A DNA stretch of 64,000 nucleotides from Watersipora subatra (lineage: Eukaryota; Bryozoa; Gymnolaemata; Cheilostomatida; Watersiporidae): the NCBI RefSeq assembly GCF_963576615.1, contig NC_088717.1, positions 52,367,026 to 52,431,025 of the forward strand, read 5' to 3'. The notes under the pieces are model-generated. The model had not been told where the DNA came from and did no database searches. It saw only the letters and a list, made by a program, of their open reading frames with translations. Made by a program: the position numbers and the translations under genes. This document shows, piece by piece, positions 5,677 through 64,000 of the stretch. Position 1 is the first letter of the stretch, and each line of letters starts with the position of its first letter.

Positions 5677-8600
5677 ATGGCGCTCGGGCACCGCATCTTT
5701 TACGACTTCGACACTGTTGATGAAAAGACACGTGATATTATAGCTTCACACGATGGTAGCTTATGTAAAGACGTGGGAAAATTGTTAAAATATTTAAACA
5801 CGCAAATAATCGGACATGATTACGTATTTCAAGGTCCCTTTGGTCTTAGAAAGGGTAAGTGCTTCTAAATGACTGATATGCCTGTAACTTTGCCATAAAC
5901 TCATTACGCTCGCTACCCTAATTCAACCAGCTTTTGACCATTTTGCCACGTTTTGAAACTTCATAGGCTTTAGCCTTTTATAGGTGTTAGTATTTCATGT
6001 TTTCTTTTTCCTCCAATATAGTTAATCTTTTGTATGGCGTTTTGTCCCATTTTCTAGTTCATTGTGCTGGACGTATTTCACAAAGACTTCTTGTCCTTAC
6101 ATTTTGTAATAACCACAATGTACAACTAAGTGAATTCTAGGTGGCATTTTTACCCATTGCGTTTTTAGTTTGTTTGAAAAAATCGGCGAGTTTGCTATTT
6201 CATGATTATTGCAAATTTATTGAGTCACCCATAAGAATCAATGAACTATATATTGGAATCCTGACATTGTCTGAGACGATTTTTAAAATATTAATTAGCA
6301 TCTTTTATTATAACTATTCATTTCCTCAAGACCCTATTGTAGGCTATTCCTATTTATAATCTGCATAGGTAAAGTAGATTGCCATTCGTACCCTTTGGAT
6401 AATTTCATTGAGCTTTTATATTCATGATTTTGGTTGTCAAAACTACAATCAAAATTAGTTATTGTCAATTGACTTGTTTTAAATATGCATTTTAATGTGA
6501 ATAGTGAAGTGGTGAGAAGGTGTCTCACATCCTGGAAAGTTTTTGTAGAACTTTATAATCAGATCTTAATTCATGATCACCTCAACATGTAAATCTTTCA
6601 ACATGAAATTAAAGCGAGTACTTGTTTCAACATGCAAACAGGTGTATATCTACAACTGTTCTCGATTTTCCTTAATTGTGTATAATGACTTTGAAGAATC
6701 ATAGTTCTTCAAAGACATTTTATCACACACGTTTAACTCGGAACCACACGTAAACAGGAAAGATGTTTGAAGATATCATAGCCTACTTATTTTTTAATCA
6801 ACGAAAACCACAAACTGGCAGGCCTACGAGTGACGATTTCAAAATATTGTTTTGTTTTTCAGTGCTCTACGCAGACTATGTCGCTTCAGGGAGGTAAGTC
6901 TACCCTTCCCCCATCACTTCTACCCACTCACCTAACCAATCAAATCATGTCCTTGTGTCCGTTATCTTGTCTTTATTTCTATTATAGATCCACTGCGTTT
7001 TATTTTTACTGAGCTTTTAAATCCATATGTTTAGTTGCCACAACCACAATCTAAATTAGTCTCATCGATTAAAACGTTTAGCAAATGCGTTTCAGTAATA
7101 ACGGTGACATGGTGGGAGAGTGGCTAATAACTGGTTAAAATGTTTTATTTAAAATCAGATCTTAACTAAATGATCACCTCAGCATGACCATTTTTCAGTA
7201 TGGAATTTAAGCAAGTATTGGTTTTAACATTCAAAGTAAAGTAACTTGTGTCATACAATGTTCGAATTACTCGGTTTCAATTGATGTACATGGTTTAAAG
7301 ACAACAATATGTGCCTACTGATAACCTATTTTGACAACTTCTACAGACACAACGATAAACCTAACTTTAATACTCCTAGTTGATCGTTGTACTTTTACAC
7401 TCTAATTGTTTATACTATGCTGGTAATTTTTCACTTTTAGCTCCTGAATAGATTTTTTCCAGTTGTATGCTAATAGAAATATATTTTTAAATGATGTCTT
7501 TGTTGAAAATTGATATTTTTCTTTAATAACAAAGTATGTTTATGCTGACCTATATTTTTCCAGCTGACCGATTTTCATTGCAATGACTGTAACTGTCAAC
7601 ACACTTTTGCAGGTCTCTTAAGTTCCTCGAGGATTACATAGCCAAGGAAGTTCTTCCTGCTTATGGCAACACCCACACCACTACTTCTGTCACAGGATTC
7701 CAGTCTACACTTTACAGACATGAGGCTAGGTAGTAGATACTTGTATTCCGAGAGAGATGGAGGCAAGGAGTACAATCTCTTGCTTGACTTGCATTTTGGC
7801 TATTCGTTTGATGTGATGGTGAAAGTATAGCAGTTACTACTCAAAGTGCTATTGTTATGTTTTTAGTATCGTCAAGTTAGGATTTTTCAACTTTGAATTT
7901 AAGTTTTTTGATATTTCCCAAAAGTTCTAGTCGGACTTTGTGTTGATTCTTTAAGTATTACAGCTTCTATCTCAAGCCAAATGGCCCTGACAGTTATTAT
8001 ATTGTTCATGGGTTATAGTTTGAGCTTGTAAATTGAACTGCCTTTTCACTTGATGCTGTAAAATGAACAGAAAAGCTGGTATTTGTTTCGAAACCCTATA
8101 TGAGCTGGCTGGACACGTACTAGAATGCACCTTTTGCTAGAGTCCTTTGCTAGACTAAAATATCGGAAGTGAATGTCCCTAACCATTACGTCATCAATGA
8201 GAATGTGTGATGGTAGTGTACCACCGTGCGTGCAGTATTCTTCACTTCTATTATTTTTCCTTTTAATACATATCTTACTAGAGTAACTTTCTATAATGTG
8301 AGCCGTGAAACCAACTACAGTGATTTTATCGGTCACACAACGTCGTTATGCGTATTTTAAGTGATGTAGTGACTATGAATATGATTAATCCATTGAATTG
8401 AAAGTAGTGTGGCTTAATGGATTTGCTTGCTGCCGTCAGAACTGGAGGTGCTGAATTCAAATCCAGTGCGAAACGCATTCTTCGTTTCTAAAACTTTATC
8501 GCTATTACTGGACACACAACAGACAGACAAATGACAATTACTGAGATTTATTTTTATAACTATACATTGTAAGATATATTTTTTTATCCTTTAGAAGTAG

Positions 8601-11600
8601 TACTTTTGCCTTTCTTCCACATTTTGAGTGATATAAGAGCATTGATCTTGAAAATGAACACTGCATAGAGATATAATCCTAGAAAGTATATGACTAACAT
8701 GGAAAAATACAAGATACTGAGAGAGAGATAGGTAGAAGGTAGCTGCGGGGCCATAGCCAACTTTTTGTACATGTGTGATGGCATGGTTACTCTTACATAT
8801 GCACTGCTACTGCACCGTCGTAATTACAAGGAATTTGTGTTAATCGAATATTGTAACAGTTTTAAAGTCTGTCGTTGCTCCGAGTTGTCACTAAATGAAG
8901 ACTTTCTGTATTTATATTTTTATTGACGAAACAACGACAAGTCTGCACTTATTCCGAAGTTAAAAATTATAAATTGCTAATTAATAGAAGCGATTTGCGG
9001 TTGCCTGAATGTGAAATGCTATTCTCTCAGGTTCTTTGAAGTGTTACGCTCACTGCAGGTCAATAGTGCGGGATTGTGTGAATGCTAGTGAACACGATGC
9101 TGTGATATTCTGTGGAACGGGATGCACTGGGGCAGTTCGTTTGCTCATCAATGCCCTTGACCTTAGTAAAGATTCGTCACAAACACCAGTTGTTATAGCT
9201 GGTCCATATGATCATCATTCTACACTACTGCCGTGGAGAGAGTTGACAGAAGATGTAAGTGCTTCATTCTATTGTCTTTGGCCATATGCGCACAGTTGTG
9301 TCAACTCTTGCTGCCTAATGATTGGTTACACTCTGTTTACACTGCCACAGGATATTATATTCCTGCGACTTTAGGAATCTTTGTATTGTTTTAGTGATTA
9401 GCAAACCAAAACTGCTTCAAACTATTTATATAAAGTTTATATTGTAGCATCCTAACATAGTTAATTAATTCTGTTAAATTATTATTCACTATCTAATAGC
9501 GCACGGATGATCTAGTTGAAAAACTATTACCTTAGAGAAAGACTGTATCAGTTATGTTGGAGAACTACGGAACTCCAATGATTATAAGCTTTTGTGATAT
9601 TCATTCAAAAGTTCATTTGAATAGGATTGCTAGTTTTTAGAATTATTGGAATTATAATACATTAACACAGTTTATTAACGAAGCCAAGTATTTCAAAGGA
9701 AAATGCATTGGAAAATGGAGTATGTACTGTAAAATCTCTATTTGAACGCCACCTTCATTTGAGTGCCACCTCTAATGAACACCATTATAGAAGAAGTTTG
9801 AAAAATACAATGCCACCCTTTAATTGAACACCACCTCTATTTGACCACCACTCTAACACTGTATATCTGAAAAGATTGATCGTCACAGTCATCAGAGCCA
9901 CACTCTGATTTGAAGTTACTAGAGTCTAAACCCTATTCAGATTCAGATACGTCCATAATATAGCTTACAATTTTACCTGAAGACTAGAAAGCGTTTTGAT
10001 GGACGATGAGAAAACTCTTCTGGAGCACCGTACGTCGTAACAGCAGCCATTGATATGATGTATTCTAATTTTCAACAGTAAAAAAAGTCTTTAAAAAGAT
10101 TAAAAACATAATCTCCTTTTTCAAACTAAGTTTTATGGTTTTTTTAAACTATGAACACGACACCGTTAAAATAATTAATGGCAGTACCACACTTAACTCG
10201 CTCTGATATTTCGACGCATACGAAAAATGATTTTGCAAAAATGCTGAGGCCGATGGCATTAATATCAGTCCGCCCGAAGGAGAGTGTAAAATACATGTAT
10301 AGGCGACATTAGCATCGCTTTGCCTATAAAAGGATTAAATTTATTTTCTCAAAATCCTGATGAGCTAGTTGAAAAATACAGCGCCACCCTTTATTTGAAT
10401 GTTACTTCTAATTAAATGCCCCTATTATAGGGGAAGGGTTGAAAAATAGAGCGCTATCGCATTCAAACGGAGGTTTTACGGTAGTTATTGTACCTTGTTA
10501 CAAGGTTGACTTGGCAGTGGTTGGCCCCAGGTTTATTTTTGCTAGCATTGTATTAAAACGGTTTTTAAAAGCATTTCATATCTTTAATAAAAACCAAAAC
10601 TGCAATTACAGTTGATTGTGAAAAGTTTATTAACTGCATCATGACTGCAGCTGGTATGATCGATTCTGATACATAAAAATAAAAGTCATGGCAATACATG
10701 TATTAAATCGATTTCATTTAACAACAACTATTTTTTACATTGTTAGTTTATAAGAATGCAAAAAATTTGGATGGTAAATGTCTCAGTCATTCAATTTATG
10801 CATAGATATAACACTGATTCTTGGTTCCATGGAGATCATTTCAAATAGAAAACAATTAACTTCGGAATCAAAATTTTGGTTTTTTTATAGTTATTAATGA
10901 CTGATTAAAAAGTTGTTTAGTTCGTCAAAAATGTTTATATCTTCTTCTATCTATGTATATATATACAGTGCTGTCAGAAATTATGAGACCACCCAATAAT
11001 TCTCGCCTTTGTTCAACTTTGCACCTCTGCTGGCACCATATTAATTCATTCATTTGCCACATATTGTACATCATTAGATGCAGAATTTTCTCCTTGTTCT
11101 AGTAAAGTAAATCAGGAGTCTTTCATTCTTTTACAGCATTGGTGATAGAATTAGTGTCATCAAGTTATCTCTTCAGTGTCCGACCACATAGCTTGTTAGT
11201 AGTAAAACGTGATGTCATCACTATGTGTTGTGCATTCTGTAATCTCACAAAGTCAAATAGTTTGGCATAAAAAAATAAAAAATGAATAAAATAATAAAAT
11301 GAATAAAAACACGAAAATATCTTTTCATTTTTTTATTCATGTCAGTTGCATATGCCTTTCGATTGAGATAAAAATAAGTATGGATTGTTATGTGATGGAA
11401 ATTTGCTTCATATTAATCAGTAAAAAATTCCGCATCTAATGGTATATGGTTTATGATAGTTTTTGTAAAACTAAGCCAGTAAATCATTGCTACCACCTTG
11501 TCTCTTAAAATGTGAGGTGGTCTCATAATTTCTGACGGCACTGTATATCTGTTTTGGTCTGTCGTATGTTCAGTTGGAGCAATAAAATATGCACGCTTGC

Positions 11601-14600
11601 AGCAGTTGCTAGCGTTGGGAACAAAACCCGCTGCGCAGTGGAATTGAACTCTAAACACTGGTTTGGCAGGCCGATATACTAACCACGCGATCACCTTGCC
11701 ATACTATGGAATATTTGTGGATATACTTAGTATACCTGCCAATTTTTAATGGCGCACAGAACTGCCAGTGTACTAGAAAAAAGTATGTGCCAGGCTTCCC
11801 AAAATGCTATAAATATATGTATATCTAGCATAAACTTTATGTATATAAATCTCAGTGTTTGTCTTTTTGTAAAACCCTGTGTCCAGTTATAACTATTAAA
11901 ACTAGCAATGAAAAATCTGCGTTGCACAGGATTTGTTCTTGGAACCTCCAGATCTAGAGGCAGCGAACTTAACCAAATACATGGAAATACAATGATTACA
12001 TTGGTTGAGATAGTCATGCTTGAAGAGCTTGTTTGGAGTTAATAAATAGCACTGTTGACCAACACAGTAACGATTGTTAACCTGGCCCAAAACGAGGGTA
12101 TTGTTTTAGTAAAAATATTGGTAAAGATCTAGCTTTACAGGTAAGTTACTCAAATTTATTTGGTAGTTATTAGGGAACATTCAGCTCGTTAAACTCATAA
12201 TACAACATATAAATAATATAATATAATAATATGTACTTATATAAACAAACACCTTCATTTAAAAGTTACAATGGTAAATGTTGTATATGTTCATTAAAAA
12301 TAAATTTCTGGGCAAAAAAGTTGTTGTTACTCGTGCAACGCTGGGTAATCAGCTAGTATCTTTATATGAAAGTAAACATACATCTCAAACTTTATAAGAC
12401 ACATTTTATCAGGCTGTAAGGTTGCAAGAAGAATTTAGCATCAAGTGCGTGTAGTAAAACTGTCGTCAAATGCAGTCAGTTGCTTGTCATTTTATTTGAT
12501 GAAAACTGTTAAAATGTTATGCTAACAGGGTACATATATTCTGAAATAGATTTTCAAGATTCTTATGACAGTATATAATAGATTTGTACCACCTTTCACT
12601 GCATCATCGTTACAGCTAAATGTTAGAAAGTTATCAGTTATGTCTTTTTGCACACTGCCTCTGAATTGGGCTGCTGGCCAAAGTAGTTCATGGCTTTCAA
12701 GAAATTCTTGCAGCAGGAGAGCTTTCTTTTACGGGTTTCTTGTTTTATAATTAGGAGTTATCCTACCATATTGAAATTGTGACTGAATTTTTATGTCTTT
12801 ACTGTGCTGCCGTGGCCGATGATGCATTTCAGAAATTTTCCTTTTTTTCTCATGGTTCTAGCGTGTGCCATGAAAAAAATAGTGTGCCACAATTAAGAGA
12901 ATACTCGGACAAATACAAAAGGACAATAATACAAAAAGGCAATCATACAAAAGGGCAATCTAGCCTAACCATGTGTTGGTTAGTGCCTTATTGTAGTAGG
13001 TCTATATATTTCACAATTTAATAATAAATGCTATAACATAATTGTAGAAGATACATAGTTTTTTCGTCAACTGTCTGTTTCATGATTATTTAATCACGAG
13101 GTTACCATACTCGAGTTCACTCTCTACTAGTAGTCTAAATACTACATTATACACGCAGTTATTCTCGACAGTTTCTAAGGTGCTCAAACTAGGTCGACTG
13201 TTATTATTCTATAGTTCAATTTATCGTATCAGAGTTACATATCTGTTGTAATTGTAAAGTTATAACTGCATTTGTTTGACCAGGTGCACCAAGTCAGTAT
13301 GACGGATGAAGGATTGTTTAACATGGATCAGCTGGACATACTTCTGAAGGTAAAACAAGATATTTGTCGTGGTGAATAGAGTGTCATTTCTCTTTGTTAT
13401 ATGATGGCTGTGAGAAAGTGCTGTCAAATCGTTTATGCCATGTGAAACCTTGTCACACGCTACAGACTGGTTGAACCTGAAATGCCAAAATCTATATTCT
13501 TTACTACATTTCCACTTTTATATTTGTTGACATGCTGCATGACTACCTTCCTTGAATTACAGGCAAGGATGGTGTGTAATGTTCTTACAGGTGAAGGTGG
13601 TGTGTAATGGTTAATCCAAAGAAAATATCTCTTCAAAAACATTCACCATCTTTTAGTAGTCTAGTTTATGGTTTTACAATTCTTTGTATAAAGCTTCTTT
13701 GATTGTTATGTGTTATTATGACCTTTTGCTGAACTGTAGCGCTTCAAAGACTCCCAACGAACTTTAATAGGCTGTATGGCTGCTGCCTCGAACATCACCG
13801 GACACATGCTGCCGGTAGATGACATTACAGTTCGTCTCCACAAGGCTGGAGCAGTTGCATTGTGGGATTATGCAATGGCTGCTCCTTATGTCGAGCTCAA
13901 CATGAATCCTGTATGCCAAGGGTGAGCATGTTGTGATCTATTGTTGATGGTTGACTGTAAGTGTGAGTGTATGACACTCGAAGATGAACTTTCAGATGAA
14001 CTGAAAGTATCAGCATTATTCTATTGTGTTCAAGATGCAGTCTTGCGTATCTCTATTCTGTCGATCTTTTTGTAACTATAGACATCATAATTGCACTTTC
14101 GTTTGATCTGAGCATTTTAACCACGATCAAGTTTTATCGATTTTAATCTTAAAACACCCTGGTAGTCAGACAACCTCAAACATCAAAAACGATAGCAAAT
14201 AATTGAAAAATAGTAGGAATTTCTGATAAAATCAACTAAAGTTTTATATAAGCTCATCTTTAAGACCAGGTTAATGTCTCTGAAAATATGCAACCTTGCT
14301 GATGATTATCCTTGACTATTATCGTACTTTTCGGACTATAAACCGCACCCCTTTATAAGCCGCATCTGCTTTATTTTCCAAAAAAAGACGGTAATGAAAC
14401 AATACATAGGCCGCACCTTTGTATAAGCCGCATAACTCAGGACGGTGCTTTTTAACACGGCAGCAACTTTCCTGTTTAAAATGGAGCAGTGCCTGACGGC
14501 ACTGTTTTGTATTAGCGGACGCTTTTTAACCTAGTGCCTAACGGAAAATTATACCGTTAGGCATTGTTTCGTATTTTCATTCACCGCTAGAGGCGCACTA

Positions 14601-38600: not shown

Positions 38601-41600
38601 AAAAAGCTCATGTGCTACTTTTGAAAGTCCCATGAACCATATCATCAGAGTAAACTTAGCTTTTCATTGGACATGCGATACTTTAACCAAATTTGTTGAC
38701 ATCATCTCGGTTACGTCGGTGTCTGTTTGATGGTCTTTTGATGAAATAAGCCATTTTAGCTAACTTGCAAATATAAAATATGTTTTACTGAAATTTCAAC
38801 GATAACTATCACCCAAAGTTTTAATTGTAAAACAGCAGTACAGGTAAACTCTCTACTTAGGCTTTATTTGTGCAAAGTTTAAGCAAGTATTTGATTCTAC
38901 ATCCAAAGTAACTTTTAACATATGACAATTAAAAGTTCTATGAGGCATTGCAGTTCTTTAAGTAAAACTGAAAAGGCTTAAGATCAAACTTGAAAAATAT
39001 AAACCAACTAGCTGTACCACCCGGCGTTGCCTGGATAATAAAAAGTCTTTGGACAGAAAATTGATTTGTCCTTAACATATAACAACATTTACCATTATTA
39101 CTTTCAAACTACATATCATGAGAGAAGTGTTTTCTGTAGTTGAAATAAATTAGGAGAGAAAATAAAAACAACTGTAAAAGTTTTCAAACTTTGTCAAACT
39201 GTAACTTTCAGACTTTATATCATGAGGGAATGATTTTGTGCAGAACAGGTTCTTTTCTTAGGAGGTATTAGACAATGTGTAACTTCTGAGAATACATGTA
39301 TTTAACAGATTAATATGTATTGATTGTTAATACATGTATTTAACAATTAATGTTAATTGCAGTTCTTTAAGTAAAACTGAAAAGGCTGAAATTTCAAACT
39401 TGGAAAATATAAACAAATTAACAAGCTGTGATAGTTTAAATATTATGTATTTTAAGTTAAAATAAGTTACAGTAACGTACAATGTATATCACCTCTACCT
39501 TTATTCAGTAACGTACAGCGTATATCACCTCTAGCTTTATTCTTAACAGGGAGTCACCTTCAGCATGGCTGCTGCAACAGTGGACCCAGGCTCTACGGCG
39601 TATGACCCCTGTCCCCTCATACCGTATCTAGCCGAACTAGGAATACCTTATTTCTATGAGCAACAAGGTAATAATCTATGGAGATGTTTATTATAGTTAT
39701 TCTGTGGATCAAAGCTAAAAGTTTGGCATTAAATTCTGGTAAACGGTGCGCATTAGTTCCAAAGACTAAAAAACTTCTGTTGCTTTGACCTGTGTATGAT
39801 GGGAGCAGGTTTCTTTCACTTGTCACTACCTAAAAATTACGAGTCAGCTTTTTTGGACTCGCACAACATAAGCAGTTAAAGCCTCTACGAGTCTTTGACT
39901 TTAATGGTTTTGTTATGTCAGCTCACTTTGTTAGTTTCTCTCTCTCCAGGAATCATGCAGCAAGCAGGCAGCGTCGAGGGAGGGTGCGACTCTATATGCA
40001 GCTACTGTAGCAGGATGAAACGGGGCAGACTGTACAAATGTGCACGGCAGCACGGCTACAATGTACTAGCTATGGGTCAGCATCTTGATGATTTAGCTGA
40101 AAGGTGAGCTCCGACTGTCTGAACAAATATATGAACTTAGGTGAAGGTCAGAGGGAAAGGGTGTTTGTACGCAGCTGAAACGTTGTGCGCTGCTTCACGG
40201 TTCTTAAATATTGGCGGCGGATGGTGACGTGGTGTGTAATTCTACAGAAGGCTGGTAGAATATAAGTATGTTATTAATTTTAGAATTAGAAAATATGTTC
40301 CTAGTTTTTATTTTTGTATGTATTTGCTAGGGTGACTAAGGCTATGGTACTTTGAGAATTACTTAACAGACGGGAAGAGATCAGTGTATTCATGCCATAC
40401 AGCCTAAGGCTGCGGTCTGCTCAATCCAGCTTTCACATTTTCTTTAATTCCATTTACATTATGGATGGGGCTATTACGACATTCCGTTTTTTTAAATTAA
40501 AACATTAATTATAACATAAAGTAGGAGTAATATACATGTACATACAGTAGACGCTACTATAACGTAAACAATTCGCTCCATGAATGTTTGCATTATAGGG
40601 AATTTACATTAGGAGAACAGCAAAATACATGTAAATTGTCTAATCCGATCCAAGATCTTTTTAAACTCACCCCTTTGGCAATGCTGGAAGGAAAATCTTC
40701 ACTTAACTCTTTTAATTTGTGAGCTGTACTGTAACTGCAGAATTATTGGTTTGCATCAACAACTTTTCTCCTTTTTTATGATCAATCTCACTGGTTGTAT
40801 AGACCATGGTTGCGGTAAATTTACAACAAGTTAATAGGGACTACACATTTTCTACGTTCATTTACAACGATTCACTTATTTTCTCTTAACAGCAATCTAT
40901 TCTGCAAAGTATGACTAATAATAAATATTTTGCACGTCTACAATAAGACAAAACAACAAAATCTTCTTACTATAAAAAGCAGTTCTACCTGTTCGGCATC
41001 TATTCCCTATTCAGGGTGAAGGTTAGGATAAAGATAATTTTTCGACAATACTCCAACTCATGACATTAAGTCTAGTAGACCAACGTTGTAACACTTGAAC
41101 CAATCGATCGCCTTTGTATTTATCAACGATGCGCAGCTATCCTATTGGTCTTTTTGTTGACACACAACGATTTACAACAACAAACTAGAATGTCACGAAT
41201 GTAATATATAATGATATACAGAAGGCGTTTTTTCTCTTGCGATTGCAGCGAAATAAACTAACAATCAGATCGAATTTGAAAACTCGCCCGACTTGACACC
41301 TTATGTTATATGGAATTCTTTACGTTGTAGGAAGCAAAAGCGTCACAGAAAGTTTTTACGTTATCTGGAATTTATGTTATAGGAGGTATACGTTATAGGA
41401 GGTATACGTTATAGGAGGTATGCGTTATAGGAGGTATACGTTATAGGAGGTATACGTTATAGGAGGTATACGTTATAGGAGGTATACGTTATAGGAGGTA
41501 TACATTATAGGAGGTATGCGTTATAGGAGGTATGCGTTATAGGAGCGTCTACTGTACTTTGAGTTTAACATGTGCTTTCTACTATGATCAATTTTGCCGA

Positions 41601-44600: not shown

Positions 44601-47600
44601 TTTTGTAAGATGTGTAGTGTTACTCAGAAATGGAACATTGAAATTATCCCTTCACCCTTTAGTTTTATCAAGTAAAATAAACTGTTTCTACTTTCTGTTA
44701 AAAACTTAAAAGCATATGTTTTTTCCGAAAAAAATATATGTCAATTTTTTGTTCACAAACATCCCCATTTTAAATTTTATGTTAGTGTTTATTTCAATTT
44801 AGAACTGCCAGCGTACAGTGAAATCTTTCAGCGGGTAAAATTGTTTGCATGTAATTATAATTACAGCTAAGCATTGCTCATACCTACTTACACGTACTTA
44901 TACTTGGTTTCACGTTCATACAATATTCAAATGAGGTTATACCAGTATTCAGAACATAAATTTATAGAACGTTCTTGGTTAACCTAAAGGAACCCTGTGG
45001 AAAAGTTCCCTCAACTGTAGTTTATATATTTACTAGGTAAATGCCCGGCGTTGCCCAAGTATTAAAAGTCTTCGCAGAAACTTTTTTTTTATTCAGCATA
45101 TAACACCTGTTACTATTTTAACTTTCAAACTTCATATCATGAAAAAGTGTTTTTGCGCAGTTTTAATAAATTAGAAAAAATAAAACAACTGTAAAGGCTT
45201 TCAAACTTTGTCAAACAACTAACTTTCAAACTTCATATCATGAGAAAAATGTTTTGTGCAGGTCAAATATTGTAAATTAAGAAATAAAACAACTATAAAG
45301 GTTTTTAAATGTAAATGTGAAATAATTAGCTAGTAATAGCTAAATTAAGTCTGTTTTGCTACGATTGCAATGAAAGATGATTTGGTAATGATACAAAAAT
45401 ATGAATTGAGAAAACAAAATAAAAATTCTGAATACGTTAAACTAATAATAACTAGAGATGCCCTGATTCTAATTCACCAGCCGATTCAGATGCCGATCCA
45501 ATATACCGATTCTTATTGAAAAGTAATCCGATTCAGATCTTTTGTGTTACATAAATAGTTGTTCATTTTATTATGCAAATATAAATATAATGCAAAAAAT
45601 ATAAATATTAATTTATTTGTTTGTATTTATGGAAAAAAATATATATACATACACGTATTCACATACTGACAGACCGTGCATGTAGTAACAAATCAGTCCA
45701 TGTTTCTTGTAATTTGTAAATCAAGGTAATTGCTGTAAGTGGTACAGTTCTCTCTGTGATAACGAAGTCTCTCTTCTATTGCTGGATGAACTGCTGGGCC
45801 TGTACAAGTTTAGAGCAAATCAATGTTTCTTTTAATTACCGTTAGTAATTCAATTTTCTCAGTAAGAAGTCTCTTCTATCACTATCAAATATCAATGGAG
45901 CCAGTCGTACTGAAGGGGTGGACTCACTTGCCACAGATGATGGAAGACAGGCTAAATACCGATAAGCCACTATGGTTACCGTTTTGTACGATACAAACTT
46001 TCGTAATGCTAGTAAATAGAAATATTACACTGCATTCTTGTCTCCCATCTTTGTTATCTTGTACGTGATTGGCTGCAATAAATCGTATCGCTGTAATTTG
46101 AAAATACCACACTTTGTGATAACGTCCTGACTAAAGCAAAAAGGTTTCTCAGCTGTAGACATGAAATAAATTGTGTGGCAGGCCCGAAATTCATTAGGTA
46201 AAAGTATGGAGCTTGCAGCTGATGATTTATATTAGTGTAGCAGGCTAAAATTTGGTTTTCTGCTAAATATTTTATCTGTAAAAAGTATCGGAAGTTTCAG
46301 ATTTTTCAGAAAAGATCGGCCGATTCAGATACTTAACACCCATATCGCCACCGATACCGATTGCCGATACCAAAATCGGGGCAACTCTAATAATAACAAT
46401 TTGTGCATAAAAGTGTTTGTGTGTATAAAAAAGGTTACTGTTCCATCAAAACTTTGAATACTATGATACTGGTGCCTCTCGATACTAGTACAAATGTAAA
46501 AGTGAGATATTAGGCTGTCTTTGTCTGGTACTTTGTCTCACCGACTAGAGGGTGAATGTAGAGGCTATTTTTACTCGCGATAATACAATTGCCGCGTAAA
46601 AATTATTAGCCTTTACCGATTTAGCAATCGAACTTTACGAAAACCGGAAATAGAAGTGTAACGGTACATTTGAATGTAAAATGGCACATTTAAAAATTAT
46701 TAATTTAACAAATAGGTAATGGTTGCAAAAAGTTAGTTTGTAAACAATTTCAAAAAGTAAAAAAAGCAAAAGGTAATATTACTTGATAATCAAAAGTGCA
46801 CATTTAGCCTGTGCATATGGTATATGATACCATATACCGCTAATAATGCTAAGAGCTATAGCTCTGCAGTTAAATGCATGGTTTGAAACTTGCGGTTGCA
46901 ATCTCCTAGAGTTCAAATCCAGCATGAAACGGATATTTCATTGCTAAATTTTAATAGGTATAGTTGGACATACCAAAGCAAATACAAACTTTAAGATTTA
47001 TGTATATAGATGAGGATAAGCTTCTTGTATTATATGAACGCAATTGTGTGTATGCTTACAAACATGCTGTAGTTTAATAATCACTCCAAATGCTGTGGAC
47101 TTGAATAATATCCTTCCTGCTAATTCTAACACCACAGCATCACCTTGTTCATGTGAATATCATCATCTTATTTTATTTGATGTCGACACTCAAAAGCTAA
47201 GCAAGCGGTGTCAAAACAGAAAAAACAAATGCAAACAGATAAAATCACATGAAAAATTTTGATGAAAGGAAATAGAGATCAGGACTTATGACTAATTCTA
47301 TGAATACCTGTGATATTGTAGATAGTACCTGTGATATTATACATAGTACCTGTGATATCATACATAGTACATGTGATATCATACATAGTACCTGTGGTAT
47401 CATACATAGTGACTATGATATTATACATTTTACCTATGATATCATACATAGTACCTGTGATATCATACATAGTAACTATGATATCATACATATTACCTGT
47501 GATATCATACATATTACCTGTGATATCATACATAGTACCTGTGATATCATACATAGTACCTGTGATATCATACATAGTACATGTGATATCATACATAGTA

Positions 47601-50006
47601 CCTGTGATATCATACATAGTACCTGTGATATCATACATAGTACATGTGATATCATACATAGTACCTGTGGTATCATACATAGTAACTATGATATTATACA
47701 TTTTACCTATGATATCATACATAGTACCTGTGATATCATACATAGTAACTATGATATCATACATATTACCTGTGATATCATACATATTACCTGTGATATC
47801 ATACATAGTACCTGTGATATCATACATAGTACCTGTGATATCATACATAGTACATGTGATATCATACATAGTACCTGTGATATCATACATAGTACCTGTG
47901 ATATCATACATAGTACATGTGATATCATACATAGTACCTGTGGTATCATACATAGTTCCTACAGTTTTACACATAGAGCTGCTAGTCTCTCCAATACCTG
48001 AGCATAATTATACTCATATTATGCATCTCGGAATGGATATGGTTGGTTTGCTACATATCCTCCATATAATTTTAAAAGATTGCTAAAAATTTGGCCGACC
48101 TTTCATGACCTTACTCGCTGAACCTTATTTCCTAGACAGCAAATATTGTTAATTATTTTTAGTTTCATGATGTCAACTTTCCATAACGGTCTTCTGCGCA
48201 CGATGAAGGCCAATTATACAGTTAATGAAGGGGACCTCAGAGTGATACGCCCTCTCGTTTACGTGAGGGAAAAGACTTTACGAGACTTCGCTGAGTCGCA
48301 AATGCTGCCAGTTATAGCAGAGAACTGTCCAGCATGTTTTGAGCAGCCAAAGGTATGTTTCACACTACATTATGGTATCTAGTTAAGACACAAATCTGCT
48401 ACTTGGCGCACTCTCTTCAACCCTTGTTGTTAGTCGGGTGTATTTTGAAGGATGCTTGTAAACTGAAAGCTCAGTTTTATTTCGAAACTTGAAGGAATCA
48501 TGTCTGTTGCCAGTTATGTATTTGCCGACTGTTTTGGACTCACAAGAGAAACATAAGAGATGGTATGGTATAAAGGTAATTGAGTTTGATATGTGGTAAA
48601 GTGAAGGGGCTTGATAAATACATCAGCTCGGTTGACAGGTTGACATTCAGAAGGGCTCTGTTTTTCATCATCAAAAAAGATTAAAAATCCATCATTATCA
48701 GTACGTCAGCACTAAAATAACAGTTTTATTTTGAGTGCGTTTATTCATATTTTTGGTCGTTGTCTGTCTGTCCGTCCGTTCATTCACTTTTGGTCACGAA
48801 GCAATCTTCATTCTCTGATTGTCACAATTATGCTGGGATTTTGGCCAGTATGATTAGCTCAGTTGGTTAGAGTGTCAGTTTAATAAGCTGAATGCCATGG
48901 GTTTGAGCCCCATCTTGGCCAACATTTTAGTTGTCTCTTTTCCAATTCCTATGCAAAGCGCTTTTGGCTAATCAACCACATCTTGTGGTTGATTAGTTCA
49001 TTTGGTTAATGCGTCAGTCTAATAAGCTGAATGTTATGGGTTCAAGCTCCATATTGGCCAACATTTTAGTCATTTTTTAATTGCATGTTTAGAATTTTGT
49101 GATTGCGTGAAAGTTTGCACACTTAAAGCAACTGCTATTCTAACACAAAAATAAAAGGCTAAAATAATAATAATATATATGTTAAAACATCAATGCCGCT
49201 CTTTATTATTCCTGACAATATAATATTGATGTAAAAGTCACCTATTATTAAGTAATTTTTAACTAATTTCAAAGAAGCTGAATTCAGATAAAACAACTAC
49301 AAAGAAAATTTTTAATCTGTCCAATAAGGACCATCCATTTTAATCTGTCCAATAAGGACCATCCATTTTAATCTGTCCAATAAGGACCATTCATTTAAAC
49401 GGATCAAATATACATAAACTATTTGTCGTTTATCAATTACGTAGGCTTTTGAACGGAGAGAGTTGTAGGTATCATTTAAAATGATCAATAGTAATCAAAA
49501 AGCCATTGGGGATAATCCTTTGTTTTAATTTTATTTATAAGCAAACTGTACCATATTGAAGCTAATAAATACCATAAATACTATATGTACCAAAACGTAA
49601 TAATCATTTACAAGATTCGAGTCGATAAAATGATGCAAGCAGTTGCTCTCTTTTCTCAATAAAACTACTTATGATAATCTTTTGTGTTATTTTTAATAAT
49701 AAACAAACTGAATGATGCCGCTAAGATGTAATTATAGCTGTCTGGTCTATCTACCACAATGGACATATATTCTATGCAACTGTGTGCTTCTTTGCTAATG
49801 TGCTCATAGTTTATCATGTCTACTAAATCAAGTCCTGTCTGCAGGAGAGACACAGGATCAAGCAGTTGCTCGCCAGCCAGGAAGTGATGTTTCCAGACCT
49901 TTACAAAAGTCTTCTCTCTAGCCTCAGGCCCCTGATGGCCCTCAACTCAAGTGAAATGACACTATTTAAGTCTATATCGAAACCCAACTTTGTAACTCCT
50001 GAGTGA
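5677..50006 (+). CDS. Cysteine-desulfurase-like aminotransferase fused to TtcA-type PP-loop tRNA thiolase (19 exons, 915 aa)
   Basis: Exons: 5677-5854, 6863-6893, 7613-7729, 9059-9254, 13284-13349, 13740-13921, 19496-19679, 21101-21225, 21700-21802, 24175-24389, 27997-28107, 30071-30263, 32160-32310, 33810-33958, 35923-36045, 39550-39667, 39950-40103, 48163-48352, 49845-50006. All introns are GT-AG, the phases agree at every join, and the total is 2748 nt. Residues about 1-500 are a class V PLP fold: GNTHTTTS, the PLP lysine in STHKFLGG (about K274) and RGGCACAGP (about 414-422), where the second Cys aligns with the SufS persulfide cysteine. Residues about 503-667 are a less recognisable segment. 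Residues about 668-915 are a TtcA-like ATPase: SGGKDS (686-691), CSYC (764-767), [10 protein letters not shown] and CPAC (854-857). By family knowledge the first half would take sulfur from cysteine and the second would thiolate adenylated tRNA. Sulfur transfer between them is inferred. No clear mitochondrial presequence is seen, so a cytosolic site is likely. Confidence 0.88.
7730..9058. other. Intron 3 of the fusion gene with a SINE
   Basis: Only a tRNA-derived SINE fragment (about 8395-8570) is recognised; the rest is unremarkable AT-rich intron. Confidence 0.5.
8395..8570 (+). mobile_element. tRNA-derived SINE fragment
   Basis: A tRNA-like head with box-A/B-like parts (GTGGCTTAATGGATTTGCTT, GGTGCTGAATTCAAATCCAG) is followed by the tail CTATTACTGGACACACAACA and GACAGACAAATGACA, as in the other SINE copies of the window. 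Confidence 0.6.
9725..10484. mobile_element. TIR element family 'GTAAAACCTCTATTTGAACG', copy 1
   Basis: The left end reads TACTGTAAAATCTCTATTTG followed by AACGCCACCT motifs. The right end reads GGAGGTTTTACGGTA, its approximate inverse. Subterminal GCCACC/TTTGAAC motifs are repeated in both ends. The interior shares a segment (GACATTAGCATCGCTTTGCC) with the longer copy at 34395-35856. No intact ORF. Confidence 0.7.
10966..11543. mobile_element. Tc1/mariner-like non-autonomous element
   Basis: The terminal inverted repeats are CAGTGCTGTCAGAAATTATG and its inverse (CATAATTTCTGACGGCACTG), about 28 bp with one mismatch, extending into GAGACCACC. Both ends abut TA, the Tc1/mariner target. Length 578 bp, with no transposase ORF. 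Confidence 0.85.
11548..11702 (-). mobile_element. tRNA-derived SINE head, minus orientation
   Basis: Read on the minus strand: CAAGGTGATCGCGTGGTTAG, then a box-B-like GAGTTCAATTCCACTGCGCA. This resembles a tRNA promoter, followed by the GACAGACC-type tail. It starts just outside the Tc1-like element. Confidence 0.55.
11840..12357 (-). mobile_element. SINE-like repeat, minus orientation
   Basis: AAATCTCAGTGTTTGTC, CCTGTGTCCAGTTATAACTA, GGAACCTCCAGATCTA, TAGCACTGTTGACCA, GTATTGTTTTAGTAAA and AAAGATCTAGCTTTACAGGT are all shared in order with 63620-63976. It ends in the GTGCAACGCTGGGTAAT module near ACTAG-type DNA. Confidence 0.75.
14321..14704. mobile_element. Palindrome-rich TIR element, copy 1
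   Basis: The left end TATCGTACTTTTCGGACTAT matches, inverted, the right end ATAGTCCAAAAAGTACGGTA, with GCCGC motifs next to both. Inside is a perfect 20-bp inverted repeat (arms 14581-14600 and 14616-14635, TCACCGCTAGAGGCGCACTA) and a 10-bp hairpin TGCCTAACGG / CCGTTAGGCA near 14535-14563. No ORF. A truncated relative lies at 27583-27790. Confidence 0.8.
15634..16718. mobile_element. Harbinger-like foldback element with doubled right end
   Basis: AGGTTGACTTACAACAAAAT at the left is inverted at 16674-16718 (ATTTTGTTGCAAGTCAACCT). The flanking TAA on both sides fits the 3-bp TWA target of PIF/Harbinger elements, although TTAA is also possible. The left arm to about 15840 pairs with 16310-16520 inverted (shared landmarks TTACTCTGTTGTGTTGTAGG and TTACAAGCTCTTAAAAGCT). 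A second end-like copy near 16470-16520 means the right end is duplicated. No transposase. Confidence 0.7.
18080..18475 (+). mobile_element. tRNA-derived SINE, plus orientation
   Basis: It begins with an ACTAGTTCAATGCCCGATG module and carries TTTACTATAATAAGAGCC, GATTGCGACATGATCTCTCA and ATTAAAGATTGG as in 1018-1440. The tRNA-like head at 18366-18425 has GCGTAGTATAGTGGTTAGCT (box A) and GGGGTTCTAAGTTCAACTCC (box B). The tail is CAAATGACAGACCTTC. Confidence 0.75.
18536..19468 (-). mobile_element. hAT element 1 with 8-bp target duplication
   Basis: The ends CAGGGGTCTGCAACC and GGTTGCTTACCCCTG are inverted repeats. Both sides are flanked by TGATAACC (18528-18535 and 19469-19476), a perfect 8-bp duplication diagnostic of hAT. 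It carries a transposase remnant on the minus strand. It lies in intron 6 of the fusion gene, its right end 27 nt before exon 7. Same family as 36074-36839. Confidence 0.93.
18945..19178 (-). pseudogene. BED-type zinc-finger N-terminal fragment of a hAT transposase
   Basis: From the ATG at 19178 on the minus strand the frame reads [16 protein letters not shown], then [20 protein letters not shown] and NNHAAF. This is a C-x2-C ... H-x4-H BED-like finger, as found at the start of hAT-type transposases and domesticated ZBED/GTF2IRD2-like proteins. The frame stops at 18945 and no DDE/RNase-H region follows inside the 933-bp element, so it is a relic. Confidence 0.7.
19680..21100. other. Intron 7 of the fusion gene
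   Basis: AT-rich intron. No repeat family or exon recognised. Confidence 0.5.
21803..24174. other. Intron 9 of the fusion gene
   Basis: No exon is recognised. A minus-strand open frame at 22341-22643 has no family match that I recognise and no splice context. The interval contains two similar phrases about 770 bp apart in opposite orientation (CCTAGGACACTTAT near 22925 and AAGTGTCCTAGGGTA near 23701), so it may be a degraded element bounded at those points. Confidence 0.4.
24838..25010 (-). mobile_element. tRNA-derived SINE fragment, minus orientation
   Basis: CTATAGCTATTAAAACTTTG, then GATTTGAACTCACGACGAAT: a box-B-like segment read on the minus strand, in the same order as in the other minus copies (11840 and 42170). 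Confidence 0.5.
26066..26640 (-). pseudogene. Helitron N-terminal fragment
   Basis: Translated on the minus strand the region gives several copies of an AETAEQ-x-Q-x-RLQ-type repeat, then [15 protein letters not shown], and [16 protein letters not shown] before a stop at 26066. The repeat and the C-x2-C-ALHW-GE motif recall the region before the Helitron-like N domain in animal Helitrons. The frame is interrupted and no Rep or helicase domain follows, so this is a relic. The Cys-rich plus-strand ORF here is its shadow. Confidence 0.5.
27583..27790. mobile_element. Palindrome-rich TIR element, truncated copy 2
   Basis: Shares CTCAGGACAGTGCTATTTAA and CACGGCAGCAA with the 14.4-kb copy, and the right end GTAGCGGCTAATAGTCAAAA followed by AAGTACGGTA. 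The left third is missing. Confidence 0.75.
28234..28332. repeat. 14-bp tandem repeat
   Basis: About seven copies of TTTCACATATCTGT, with one T-for-C change, in intron 11. Confidence 0.92.
28427..28860 (+). mobile_element. 'CTAGCTG...TTTCAAACTTCATATCATGA' repeat, copy 1
   Basis: Begins CTAGCTGTCCTGCTCGGTAA and contains AAAGTTTTTGGACAGAAAAT, AACTTTCAAACTACATATCA and GTAAAGGCTTTCAAACTTTG in the same order as at 39008-39357 and 45033-45350. No ORF. It may be the 3' part of a retroelement. Confidence 0.7.
29628..29975. repeat. Degenerate ACAGACCAACAGCCA minisatellite
   Basis: About 20 imperfect copies of a 15-17-bp CA-rich unit. It opens three long Cys/Val-rich minus-strand frames that are products of the repeat, not genes. 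It sits about 95 bp before exon 12. Confidence 0.9.
30411..30531. repeat. 33-bp tandem repeat
   Basis: Roughly 3.5 copies of a unit containing CCTTGACCTAATATCCCTTG, in intron 12. Confidence 0.9.
30532..32159. other. Rest of intron 12
   Basis: Contains one SINE-like copy (31685-31860). Otherwise AT-rich, with nothing recognised. Confidence 0.5.
31685..31860 (+). mobile_element. tRNA-derived SINE
   Basis: TAAGGTGGTCGAGCGGTGCG, then a box-B-like TCCGAGTTCGTTTCC, followed by a GGCTTCAGACAGACACGGCT tail. The head resembles a class II (Ser/Leu-like) tRNA start. Confidence 0.55.
32311..33809. other. Intron 13 of the fusion gene
   Basis: No exon, repeat family or RNA gene recognised. Confidence 0.45.
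34012..34310 (+). repeat. 87-bp tandem triplication of a SINE/retroelement end
   Basis: It starts CTAGCTGTGCCCCCCACGGC then GTTGCCCGGGTATTAAAGAT. Then three copies follow at about 87-bp spacing of a unit with ATCAGCTTATAAAC, GAGAGTTGCC and TTAGCCTGGCACATTGCCAA. The same unit occurs once, inverted, at 42430-42570. Confidence 0.85.
34395..35856. mobile_element. TIR element family 'GTAAAACCTCTATTTGAACG', long copy
   Basis: CCGTAAAACCTCTAATTGAA at the left is inverted as TTCAATTAGAGGTTTTACGG at the right, with repeated CGCCACC/TTTGAAC motifs in both subterminal regions. Length about 1.46 kb. The interior holds a plus-strand open frame around 34921-35148 ([18 protein letters not shown] and [10 protein letters not shown]), with no ATG and no domain I recognise; it may be a transposase relic. 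It ends 66 bp before exon 15. Confidence 0.8.
36074..36839 (+). mobile_element. hAT element 2 (same family, opposite orientation)
   Basis: Ends CAGGGGTCGGCAACC and GGTTGCCAACCCCTG, flanked by ACATAGGC and GCATAGGC (7 of 8 bases). The interior (GCGGCTCCGGAGCC, TTTTATCACTAGATTTTGTA) matches element 1 at 18536-19468 read in reverse. The transposase region is deleted. The left end is 28 nt after the donor of exon 15. Confidence 0.9.
36979..37091. repeat. 20-bp tandem repeat, array 1
   Basis: Five to six copies of CCTATATTTACTTAATGTGA with minor changes, in intron 15. Confidence 0.92.
37100..38450. other. Intron 15 interval between two related arrays
   Basis: AT-rich. No gene recognised. It is bracketed by two arrays of the same 20-bp unit. 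Confidence 0.45.
38455..38563. repeat. 20-bp tandem repeat, array 2
   Basis: About five copies of the same unit as at 36979-37091 (ACCTATATTTACTTAATGTG), more diverged, in the same orientation 1.4 kb downstream. Confidence 0.9.
38950..39417 (+). mobile_element. Retroelement-like repeat (copy 2) between 57-bp direct repeats
   Basis: 39008-39357 begins CTAGCTGTACCACCCGGCGT and contains TGGACAGAAAATTGATTTGT and TTTCAAACTACATATCATGA, as in the copies at 28.4 and 45.0 kb. It is bounded by direct repeats 38950-39006 and 39360-39417, both starting CAGTTCTTTAAGTAAAACTG and ending near AAAATATAAAC. Confidence 0.7.
40545..41554. mobile_element. TA-flanked TIR element carrying an end minisatellite
   Basis: CAGTAGACGCTACTATAACG at the left is inverted at the right as CGTTATAGGAGCGTCTACTG, each next to TA. 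Length 1010 bp, no ORF. The right end contains a 16-bp array (41388-41548) whose unit is the inner part of the terminal repeat. Confidence 0.85.
41388..41548. repeat. 16-bp minisatellite inside an element end
   Basis: About ten copies of GTTATAGGAGGTATAC (some with TATGC) directly next to the terminal repeat GTTATAGGAGCGTCTACTG. Confidence 0.95.
42170..42570 (-). mobile_element. SINE plus 'CCTGGCACATTGCCAATGG' module, minus orientation
   Basis: CCAGCTATAGCTGTTAAAAT, then a tRNA-like box-B region (GATTTGATCTCAGACTCTCC), then TTGGCAGTGTTCCAGGCTAA, TTTATAAGCTGATTTTTAAT and the ACCTGGGCAACGTCGGGTAG end next to CTAGT. Confidence 0.65.
42840..43060 (-). repeat. Second CCGGGCAACGCC-type repeat end, minus orientation
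   Basis: TCTGTCTGTCTGTCATTCCG, CTATAGCTATCATTAGAATA, then TTATAAACTGATTTTTAACA and CCCGGGCAACGCCGACAGGC ahead of CTAGTTGG. It is a shorter relative of 42170-42570. Confidence 0.55.
43545..44030 (+). CDS. Small DUF5679-like zinc-ribbon protein with Arg-rich tail, nested in intron 17 (two exons, 111 aa)
   Basis: Exon 1 is 43545-43702, with ATG in the favourable context AACAATGA and donor AG|GTAGAT. Exon 2 is 43853-44030, after acceptor TTTTTTTTGAAG. They join in frame (336 nt) and end at TAA. The N-terminal part contains [10 protein letters not shown], a basic turn, [10 protein letters not shown] and KCHKCD: two CxxC knuckles with the spacing of DUF5679, a short zinc-ribbon family I recall from archaea, large DNA viruses and some mobile elements. 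Exon 2 encodes a tail made mostly of Arg, Lys and Ser (e.g. [20 protein letters not shown]), like protamines or viral core proteins. AATAAA lies 58 nt after the stop. The gene sits inside the 8-kb intron between exons 17 and 18 of the fusion gene, on the same strand. DNA condensation or nuclear packaging is a guess from composition. A viral or Maverick-type origin is possible but unproven. Confidence 0.62.
44088..44093 (+). promoter_or_regulatory. Candidate polyadenylation signal of the nested gene
   Basis: AATAAA lies 58 nt after the stop codon of the nested two-exon gene, and a second copy starts near 44103. The close spacing supports a short independent transcript inside the host intron. 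Confidence 0.5.
45033..45350 (+). mobile_element. 'CTAGGTAAATGCCCGGCGTTGCCC' repeat, copy 3
   Basis: The end module is followed by AAAAGTCTTCGCAGAAACTT, ACTTTCAAACTTCATATCAT and GTAAAGGCTTTCAAACTTTG, in the order of the 28.4- and 39.0-kb copies. Confidence 0.7.
45453..46389. mobile_element. hAT element 3 (different family) with 8-bp target duplication
   Basis: TAGAGATGCCCTGATT at the left is inverted as AATCGGGGCAACTCTA at the right. Both sides carry ATAATAAC (45445-45452 and 46390-46397). Subterminal CCGATTCAGAT/CCGATACCGAT motifs repeat at both ends. Length 937 bp, no transposase. Confidence 0.9.
46835..47015 (+). mobile_element. tRNA-derived SINE
   Basis: GAGCTATAGCTCTGCAGTTA, then GAGTTCAAATCCAGCATGAA (box B), then AATAGGTATAGTTGGACATA, like the tail of other copies. 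Confidence 0.6.
47318..47959. repeat. 21-bp minisatellite with 273-bp higher-order period
   Basis: About 30 copies of ATAGTACCTGTGATATCATAC with recurring variants (ATAACTATGAT, ATATTACC, TTTTACCTATG, GTACATGTG, CTGTGGTATC). The variant order from about 47400 to 47670 is repeated 273 bp (13 units) later. Because 21 and 273 are multiples of three, long open frames appear on both strands. They are repeat products, not genes. Confidence 0.97.
48848..48923 (+). other. tRNA-Ile(AAT)-like sequence, copy 1 (probable pseudogene)
   Basis: TAGCTCAGTTGGTTAGAG is a good D arm. TCAGTTTAATAAGCTGA gives an anticodon stem and loop with AAT. ATGGGTTTGAGCCCCAT is a paired T arm, and CTTGGCC closes the 3' side. 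The 5' side reads GGCCAGTATGAT instead of a plain 7-base strand, leaving extra bases before the D arm, so a functional tRNA is doubtful. Confidence 0.6.
48968..49062 (+). other. Hairpin plus tRNA-Ile-like sequence, copy 2 (degenerate)
   Basis: A perfect 13-bp inverted repeat with a 3-nt loop (48968-48980 and 48984-48996, CTAATCAACCACA) runs into a second tRNA-like copy: GATTAGTTCATTTGGTTAAT, TCAGTCTAATAAGCTGA, ATGGGTTCAAGCTCCAT and ATTGGCCA. It is more degraded than copy 1; the two derive from one duplication. Confidence 0.6.
49313..49400. repeat. 28-bp tandem repeat, three copies
   Basis: TTTTAATCTGTCCAATAAGG followed by ACCATCCA, three times, in intron 18. Confidence 0.93.
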
Positions 50007-63333: not shown

Positions 63334-64000
63334 CTGAAATTATTGCTTACACATTGTAGATTATGTCACCAACATTAAATTAGAATGCTACAAAGCTTTT
63401 CTAGCAGCAGTTTTTGATCCTTCAATTGTGCATTGCTGGCCAGAAATGTCTTCTTTACAATAATCACTTTGCCATTAAGAGGGCTATGCTTTAATTAAGC
63501 CATGTACGTGTAAGTCTTAAAGCGGGTAATGAAAAATGGCAAATTCACTAAGCAACCTCTCCAAAAGACAACTAACTCTTTTCATAGCCAAAGTAAATTG
63601 AGTATTCGTAATCTATATATAAATCTCAGTGTTTGTCCTTTTGTTAAGGACTGTGTCCAGTTGTAGCAATTAAAATCTAGCTATGAGAAATCCGCAAAGC
63701 ACTGGATTTGATCTCAGGACCTCCAGATCTAAATTGGGATTCATTGGGCAAATCAAATAGTCATAACACTGGAAGATAAGATACTCTAGCGTAAGGCGCT
63801 TGCTTGGGTTGATAACTAGCACTGTTGACCATTACATGTAATGATTGTTAAGCTGGCCAAAACTGGTGTATTGTTTTAGTAAATATTTTAGTAAAGATCT
63901 AGCTTTACAGGTAAATTACTCCAATTCATTAAGTAAGTATTCTACTACCCGTGCAATGCCGGGCAAATGGCTAGTTAAACGTATAAATGTTATTGCTGTT
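63334..64000. other. Intron of the IgGFc-domain gene to the window edge
   Basis: No further exon of the gene is recognised. The right half is a SINE-like copy (63620-63976). Confidence 0.55.
63620..63976 (-). mobile_element. SINE-like repeat, minus orientation
   Basis: AAATCTCAGTGTTTGTCCTT, GACTGTGTCCAGTTGTAGCA, GATTTGATCTCAGGACCTCC, TAGCACTGTTGACCATTACA and AAAGATCTAGCTTTACAGGT match 11840-12357 in order. The end module CCCGTGCAATGCCGGGCAAA precedes CTAGT. Confidence 0.8.

Follow-up and report, generated by a model that had tools for sequence, protein, structure and literature searches.

A predicted gene of the bryozoan Watersipora subatra joins a SufS-like cysteine desulfurase half to a TtcA-like thiolase half in one open frame

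Introduction

Sulfur destined for tRNA is relayed through series of separate proteins in the reviewed systems, as far as the available parts of those reviews describe them. Cysteine desulfurases form a persulfide on a conserved cysteine, type II desulfurases rely on partner proteins, SufE or SufU for example, and TtcA holds a [4Fe-4S] cluster on three cysteines, with the base thought to be adenylated via the PP-loop and the iron proposed as sulfide carrier, according to the accessible sections of three papers (PMC5372739, PMC5372745, PMC8300815). In Bacillus subtilis, a dedicated desulfurase, YrvO, and a tRNA thiolase, MnmA, are encoded by genes 31 bp apart, and an artificial MnmA-YrvO fusion replaced the plastid MnmA of a parasite, as MnmA alone could too, in the excerpts of the study at hand (PMC10219651). 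Here we describe a predicted gene in a 64,000-nucleotide stretch of the 783.7-Mb genome of the bryozoan Watersipora subatra (contig NC_088717.1, positions 52,367,026 to 52,431,025, forward strand; hereafter the window), in which one open frame joins a desulfurase-like N-terminal half (N-half) to a TtcA-like thiolase C-terminal half (C-half).

The pairing of a desulfurase with a tRNA thiolase is already known in the form of separate proteins. No description of such a fusion was found in the open-access PubMed Central (PMC) literature, in accord with an earlier first-pass annotation of this DNA, which knew of no functional account. Eukaryotic databases probably contain predicted relatives, and a krill transcript named TtcA, which shows sinusoidal expression in the part of that report available (PMC3714250), may be a lead that animals express such genes.

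A single open frame

The gene lies on the plus strand at 5677-50006. An independent rebuild joined its 19 exons in phase into 2748 nt, or 915 amino acids followed by TGA, with the ATG at 5677, the stop codon ending at 50006 and GT-AG boundaries at all 18 introns (Table 1), thereby reproducing the exon number, conflict-free phases and codon count of the first-pass annotation. The catalytic motifs to which it had drawn attention were likewise recovered (numbering of the 915-residue protein): in the N-half the pyridoxal phosphate (PLP) lysine K274 within STHK and the persulfide-loop cysteine C419 within RGGCAC, which also holds C417, and in the C-half SGGKDS (686-691), CSYC (764-767), GQHLDD (790-795) and CPAC (854-857).

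Individual exons were recognizable by homology. In a 934-residue model, which carried 34871-35076 as exon 14, 16 of 19 exons singly matched bacterial relatives at E<0.01 in a custom database of about 109 proteins, with composition correction off; the misses were exons 5 and 13 and the piece in the place of exon 14 (E 1.2). Among 174 decoy open pieces bounded by AG and GT, two of identical sequence matched, because both spanned the real exon 9, and none of the remaining 172 did. The piece at 34871-35076 has weak splice sites and belongs to a dispersed repeat. A genome search with the 934-residue protein returned 49 scored matches of 2802 candidates, 31 of which, outside the window and a second desulfurase gene described below, covered the repeat piece or its surroundings only (51-83% identity), and the piece was dropped as an exon because at least 31 other places in the genome match it alone. 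The open part of the repeat is easily mistaken for a fusion-gene exon; no Pfam family was found in it. Replacing it by the present exon 14, for which the genome search gave no second match anywhere, raised the TtcA profile score from 189.5 to 195.0 bits and moved the start of the match from residue 683 to residue 647. Several comparisons reported here used the 934-residue model or its C-half, and their conclusions rest on matches outside the repeat piece.

The junction is where a single gene has to be weighed against two, of which the first would end its N-half in exon 13 and the second would start its C-half at M662 or M665 in exon 14, under a promoter of its own. Such an arrangement would suit the fact that exon 13 stays open for about 15 codons beyond its donor to a stop, and that the two in-frame methionines closest to the TtcA domain start, M662 and M665, lie ahead of the PP-loop. 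Against it, TtcA profile homology begins at residue 647, before both methionines, and exon phases are compatible on the two sides of the junction; in an alignment whose query included the PP-loop, residues 653-661 paired with the starts of TtcA proteins. Furthermore, the 44 codons before M662 (residues 618-661) are open and coding-like, only 0.8% of open intron triplet runs scoring as high. The corresponding proportions were 2.5% for residues 593-617, 0.27% for 618-646 and 7%, a weaker coding signal, for 647-667, in a small test trained on the other exons of the fusion gene. We regard two genes as quite improbable. That the gene has decayed or was created by an assembly join is barely credible, given 19 exons without frameshift or stop, intact catalytic residues and GT-AG splice sites.

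The desulfurase-like half

The N-half is predicted to be a type II, SufS-like cysteine desulfurase with intact catalytic residues, from an uncharacterized family that is neither IscS nor SufS proper. The PLP lysine, stacking histidine, aspartate and substrate arginine have recognized roles in type II desulfurases; K274, H161/H162, D239 and R471 of the fusion are invariant in 83 of 83 relatives, as are both C417 and C419, in an alignment of 84 rows from which one 33-residue fragment (L081) was dropped. C419 aligned with the cysteine of the SufS loop RAGHHCAQP, giving the short R-x-G-x-x-C loop, and the SufS fold expected of a type II desulfurase was predicted for a bacterial relative. The bacterial family ends near a WFxLP motif, which exon 13 carries. 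The NCBIfam profile for DndA gave 36 bits, below its cut-off of 480.

In a tree of 45 of 85 rows, the fusion formed a long branch next to a second such branch (support 80/74), a placement that we do not trust. Viral contigs compared with the N-half alignment yielded 11 pattern matches and no relatives, and 30 phage records had a match, the 20 listed being ordinary-looking desulfurase or TtcA matches of 22-33% identity, none covering 80%.

The thiolase-like half

Residues ~647-905 make up a TtcA-like iron-sulfur (Fe-S) PP-loop thiolase domain, with the Pfam PP-loop family matching at 680-848, and contain the features expected of TtcA, namely SGGKDS and three cluster cysteines, C764, C767 and C857. 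NCBIfam profiles of other families gave 46 bits for TtuA (cut-off 450) and 32 bits for NcsA (cut-off 500), both below threshold, and 56 bits for TilS. The C-half forms a separate TtcA-like subfamily, recognizable by ENCPAC (E/D-N/S-CPAC) and, in most cases, by QHLDD. TtcA-like matches in the first bacterial samples were mostly 28-38% identical to it (24 of 41 genomes; 185 of 193; an alignment of 25). Sampling 50 Pseudomonadota genomes brought one 45% match and sampling 398 brought two matches at E<=1e-45, and among 369 genomes of the Pseudomonadota class to which one of these two belongs, 118 had an ENCPAC-type protein with 45-60% identity to the C-half. In a midpoint-rooted tree, the fusion C-half joined 22 ENCPAC proteins (20 of the best-scoring among the 118, plus two others) apart from 25 TtcA-like rows, with support of 100/100; all 47 aligned proteins shared, without variation, the PP-loop, the CxxC pair and the final cysteine. 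Because the C-half groups apart from TtcA, 2-thiocytidine at position 32 (s2C32) is only a first guess for its product.

The first-pass annotation had described a desulfurase-like enzyme fused to a TtcA-type thiolase, naming IscS as the separate sulfur donor of TtcA in bacteria. The fusion in one frame stands, with a coding-like linker and homology that begins before the first likely C-half start codon; what changes is that the N-half falls in a type II-like family and the C-half in a clade apart from TtcA proper.

Bacterial relatives

The fusion unites families that, by homology, the sampled bacteria keep apart. C-half homology (E<=1e-3) was absent from the flanks, a few hundred bases to 10 kb long, of 80 of 80 bacterial N-half loci, and an N-half relative was absent from 13 stretches around C-half relatives. 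No N-half relative (E<=1e-45) was detected in any of the 78 ENCPAC-carrying genomes searched out of 118, both of two controls being positive. When 41 of the 80 N-half-carrier genomes were searched, 24 had a TtcA-like match, the best of which (E 2.5e-37) was far from the ENCPAC level. In no sampled genome did the two families occur together, so that no bacterial operon foreshadowing the pair emerged; bacterial fusions may still exist outside these samples.

No fixed partner of the bacterial N-half genes emerged: 108 neighbours fell into 93 families, and among the 25 of these families that were listed the AsnC/Lrp type was the most frequent, in four. Neither was a conserved neighbour seen among the 10 neighbours of bacterial C-half relatives (three lipid A acyltransferases, four with no match and otherwise one of each kind). 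One bacterial C-half relative (45% identity; L131:19-2259) sits immediately downstream of what by eye resembles an Fe-S oxidoreductase subunit, a Cys-rich protein.

Proposed mechanism

The domain content, catalytic residues and single frame are read from the sequence, and on balance they lead us, by a modest degree, to favour one 915-residue enzyme, probably cytosolic, whose desulfurase half would feed sulfur to the fused thiolase, which would in turn thiolate a tRNA base. No organelle signal was apparent by eye at the protein start. In a protein translated from a single mRNA, the N-half would remove sulfur from L-cysteine and carry it as a Cys419 persulfide, while the C-half would use ATP at the PP-loop to adenylate a tRNA pyrimidine, possibly C32. 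The sulfur would then move within the molecule to the activated base by way of the iron left open in a [4Fe-4S] cluster whose ligands would be Cys764, Cys767 and Cys857. In its simplest form, this reading makes the thiolase half the covalently attached acceptor of the desulfurase. Two bacterial-type proteins, apart in the sampled bacteria, would have been joined in a eukaryotic lineage.

Several observations weigh against this reading. The fusion scored 195.0 bits with the NCBIfam TtcA equivalog profile, whose cut-off is 272 (three bacterial members of the C-half subfamily scored 202-220), and 125 bits with the SufS profile, whose cut-off is 475 (two bacterial N-half relatives, likewise below it, scored 119 and 126). 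A TtcA-like match was absent from 17 of the 41 N-half-carrier genomes searched, so that bacterial N-half genes occur without a thiolase. The surroundings of the N-half relative on four plasmids suggest cysteine breakdown or persulfide metabolism: the Rhodococcus plasmid (L001:5944-10289) has a metallo-beta-lactamase (MBL)-rhodanese protein 1.2 kb downstream, the Aminobacter plasmid an MBL protein immediately behind the relative, the Sagittula plasmid a flavin adenine dinucleotide (FAD) oxidoreductase followed by an aminothiazoline-carboxylate hydrolase, and the Deinococcus plasmid no MBL, rhodanese or hydrolase neighbour. MBL-rhodanese proteins have been linked to persulfide oxidation. Four loci are too few to prove such a neighbourhood.

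The same genome also holds a second N-half gene (contig C2, 33867777-33876268, minus strand; loci L114, L116, L122 and L123), composed of three long exons and sharing 45-50% identity with the fusion over residues 37-436 and 33-35% over ~455-556. Its last exon has a possible donor before the stop, which leaves the gene end uncertain, and the ~56 kb downstream yielded no thiolase, a single 16-residue hit (E 5.5) being due to chance. This copy is apparently unfused, and its presence implies that the N-half domain needs no thiolase.

The bacterial occurrence without a thiolase, the plasmid surroundings and the apparently unfused copy would fit halves that are fused but work separately, the N-half breaking down cysteine and passing persulfide to small thiols and the C-half drawing on a general sulfur supply for RNA. 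We consider this account rather unlikely. Type II desulfurases need an acceptor partner, according to the parts of the literature at hand, and no C-half was found outside the fusion: a six-frame genome search at E<=0.01, of low sensitivity to exon-split genes, returned no other thiolase, its six matches being exons 14-19. A six-frame search with PF01171 gave no matches and missed even the fusion gene.

Alternatively, the desulfurase half might mainly build or repair the [4Fe-4S] cluster of its own C-half, the link serving cofactor assembly and not the supply of sulfur to a base. E. coli TtcA is described as needing IscS for its cluster, in the portions of the reviews that were accessible, and the fusion ends in TPE, without the client tag [LIM]-[DES]-[WF], which over a quarter of cytosolic Fe-S client proteins or their adaptors carry, as stated in the available part of one study (PMC10623007). 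However, one desulfurase per thiolase would exceed the expected need, and Pfam revealed no scaffold domain. Cluster assembly as the main function seems improbable.

In a wider reading, some animals would make a thionucleoside in their own tRNA, s2C32 or a related base, by a self-contained cysteine-to-RNA relay built from two fused bacterial-type proteins that do not co-occur in sampled bacteria, bypassing Nfs1, Urm1/Uba4 and Ncs6; we put this proposal forward tentatively, as possible but short of probable. A covalent donor-acceptor enzyme would turn sulfur transfer into an assayable one-protein problem and would predict animal tRNA thiolation outside the Nfs1-Urm1-Ncs6 route, and the fusion gives two uncharacterized bacterial families a testable function.

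Other features of the window

Exons with IgGFc-binding domains (PF17517) lie beside the fusion gene, and a further open piece at 57859-58179 had no domain match. The introns contain a minisatellite, a weak zinc-finger match that is possibly transposon-derived, and two tRNA matches that are perhaps derived from a short interspersed nuclear element.

Table 1. Exons of the fusion gene and other features of the window (window coordinates)
Feature	Position	Strand	Content and support
Exon 1	5677-5854	+	aa 1-59/60, ATG; GT donor, frame, bacterial N-half family match
Exon 2	6863-6893	+	YADYVASGR; frame, splice sites, bacterial match alone
Exon 3	7613-7729	+	frame, splice sites, bacterial match alone
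Exon 4	9059-9254	+	GPYDHHS, H161/H162; bacterial match alone
Exon 5	13284-13349	+	frame and splice sites only; 22 aa, too short for a match of its own (E 2.3)
Exon 6	13740-13921	+	D239; bacterial match alone
Exon 7	19496-19679	+	PLP lysine K274 (THKFLGG); bacterial match alone
Exon 8	21101-21225	+	REEGGTP; bacterial match alone
Exon 9	21700-21802	+	bacterial match alone
Exon 10	24175-24389	+	catalytic loop RGGC417AC419AGPY; alignment to SufS loop Cys
Exon 11	27997-28107	+	R471; bacterial match alone
Exon 12	30071-30263	+	desulfurase-family C-terminal extension; bacterial match alone
Exon 13	32160-32310	+	N-half end (LLWFVLP), linker start; E 0.010; tail codon use coding-like (0.025)
Exon 14	33810-33958	+	linker and TtcA N-terminal helix; good acceptor and donor
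Exon 15	35923-36045	+	PP-loop SGGKDS; bacterial match alone
Exon 16	39550-39667	+	bacterial match alone
Exon 17	39950-40103	+	C764xxC767 and GQHLDD; bacterial match alone
Exon 18	48163-48352	+	RPLVYVRE and C854PAC857; bacterial match alone
Exon 19	49845-50006	+	TGA stop; E 0.004 to bacterial relatives
Dispersed repeat, open piece	34861-35145	+	
Zinc-finger match	18945-19289	-	in an intron; Spin-doc type, below cut-off
Minisatellite	47305-47960		intron before exon 18; 21-base unit, 31 copies
tRNA matches	48855-48913, 48987-49060	+	last intron; Rfam RF00005, not called by ARAGORN
PF17517 exons	54817-55387, 62978-63346	-	

Comparison with known systems

TtcA (tRNA cytidine-32 2-sulfurtransferase) shares with the C-half the PP-loop, CxxC, the HxDD motif, the third cysteine of the cluster site and RPLxYxRE, whereas the C-half subfamily has ENCPAC in place of PCNLCGSQ and mostly QHLDD in place of HHRDD, and the C-half falls in a separate clade and is fused. 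The bacterial ENCPAC-type proteins are closer, belonging to the same clade with all motifs present in the 22 aligned, but they occur without an N-half relative in the 78 of 118 genomes tested and in the 13 surrounding stretches. With SufS and CsdA, identity in the structural matches is 22-25%; the N-half further differs from them by an additional invariant cysteine, Cys417, which lies two residues ahead of the catalytic one, by a C-terminal extension of ~100 residues and by its fusion to a putative acceptor.

The YrvO-MnmA pair is alike in coupling a desulfurase with a dedicated tRNA thiolase, although the two are separate proteins in nature and MnmA, as the accessible text describes it, lacks Fe-S clusters, unlike the predicted TtcA-type site of the C-half subfamily. 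YrvO is a type I desulfurase. DndA-DndC of DNA phosphorothioation, as presented in the available part of one paper, likewise combines a cysteine desulfurase with a PP-loop Fe-S protein (PMC10853773), but as separate proteins, unlike the fusion described here.
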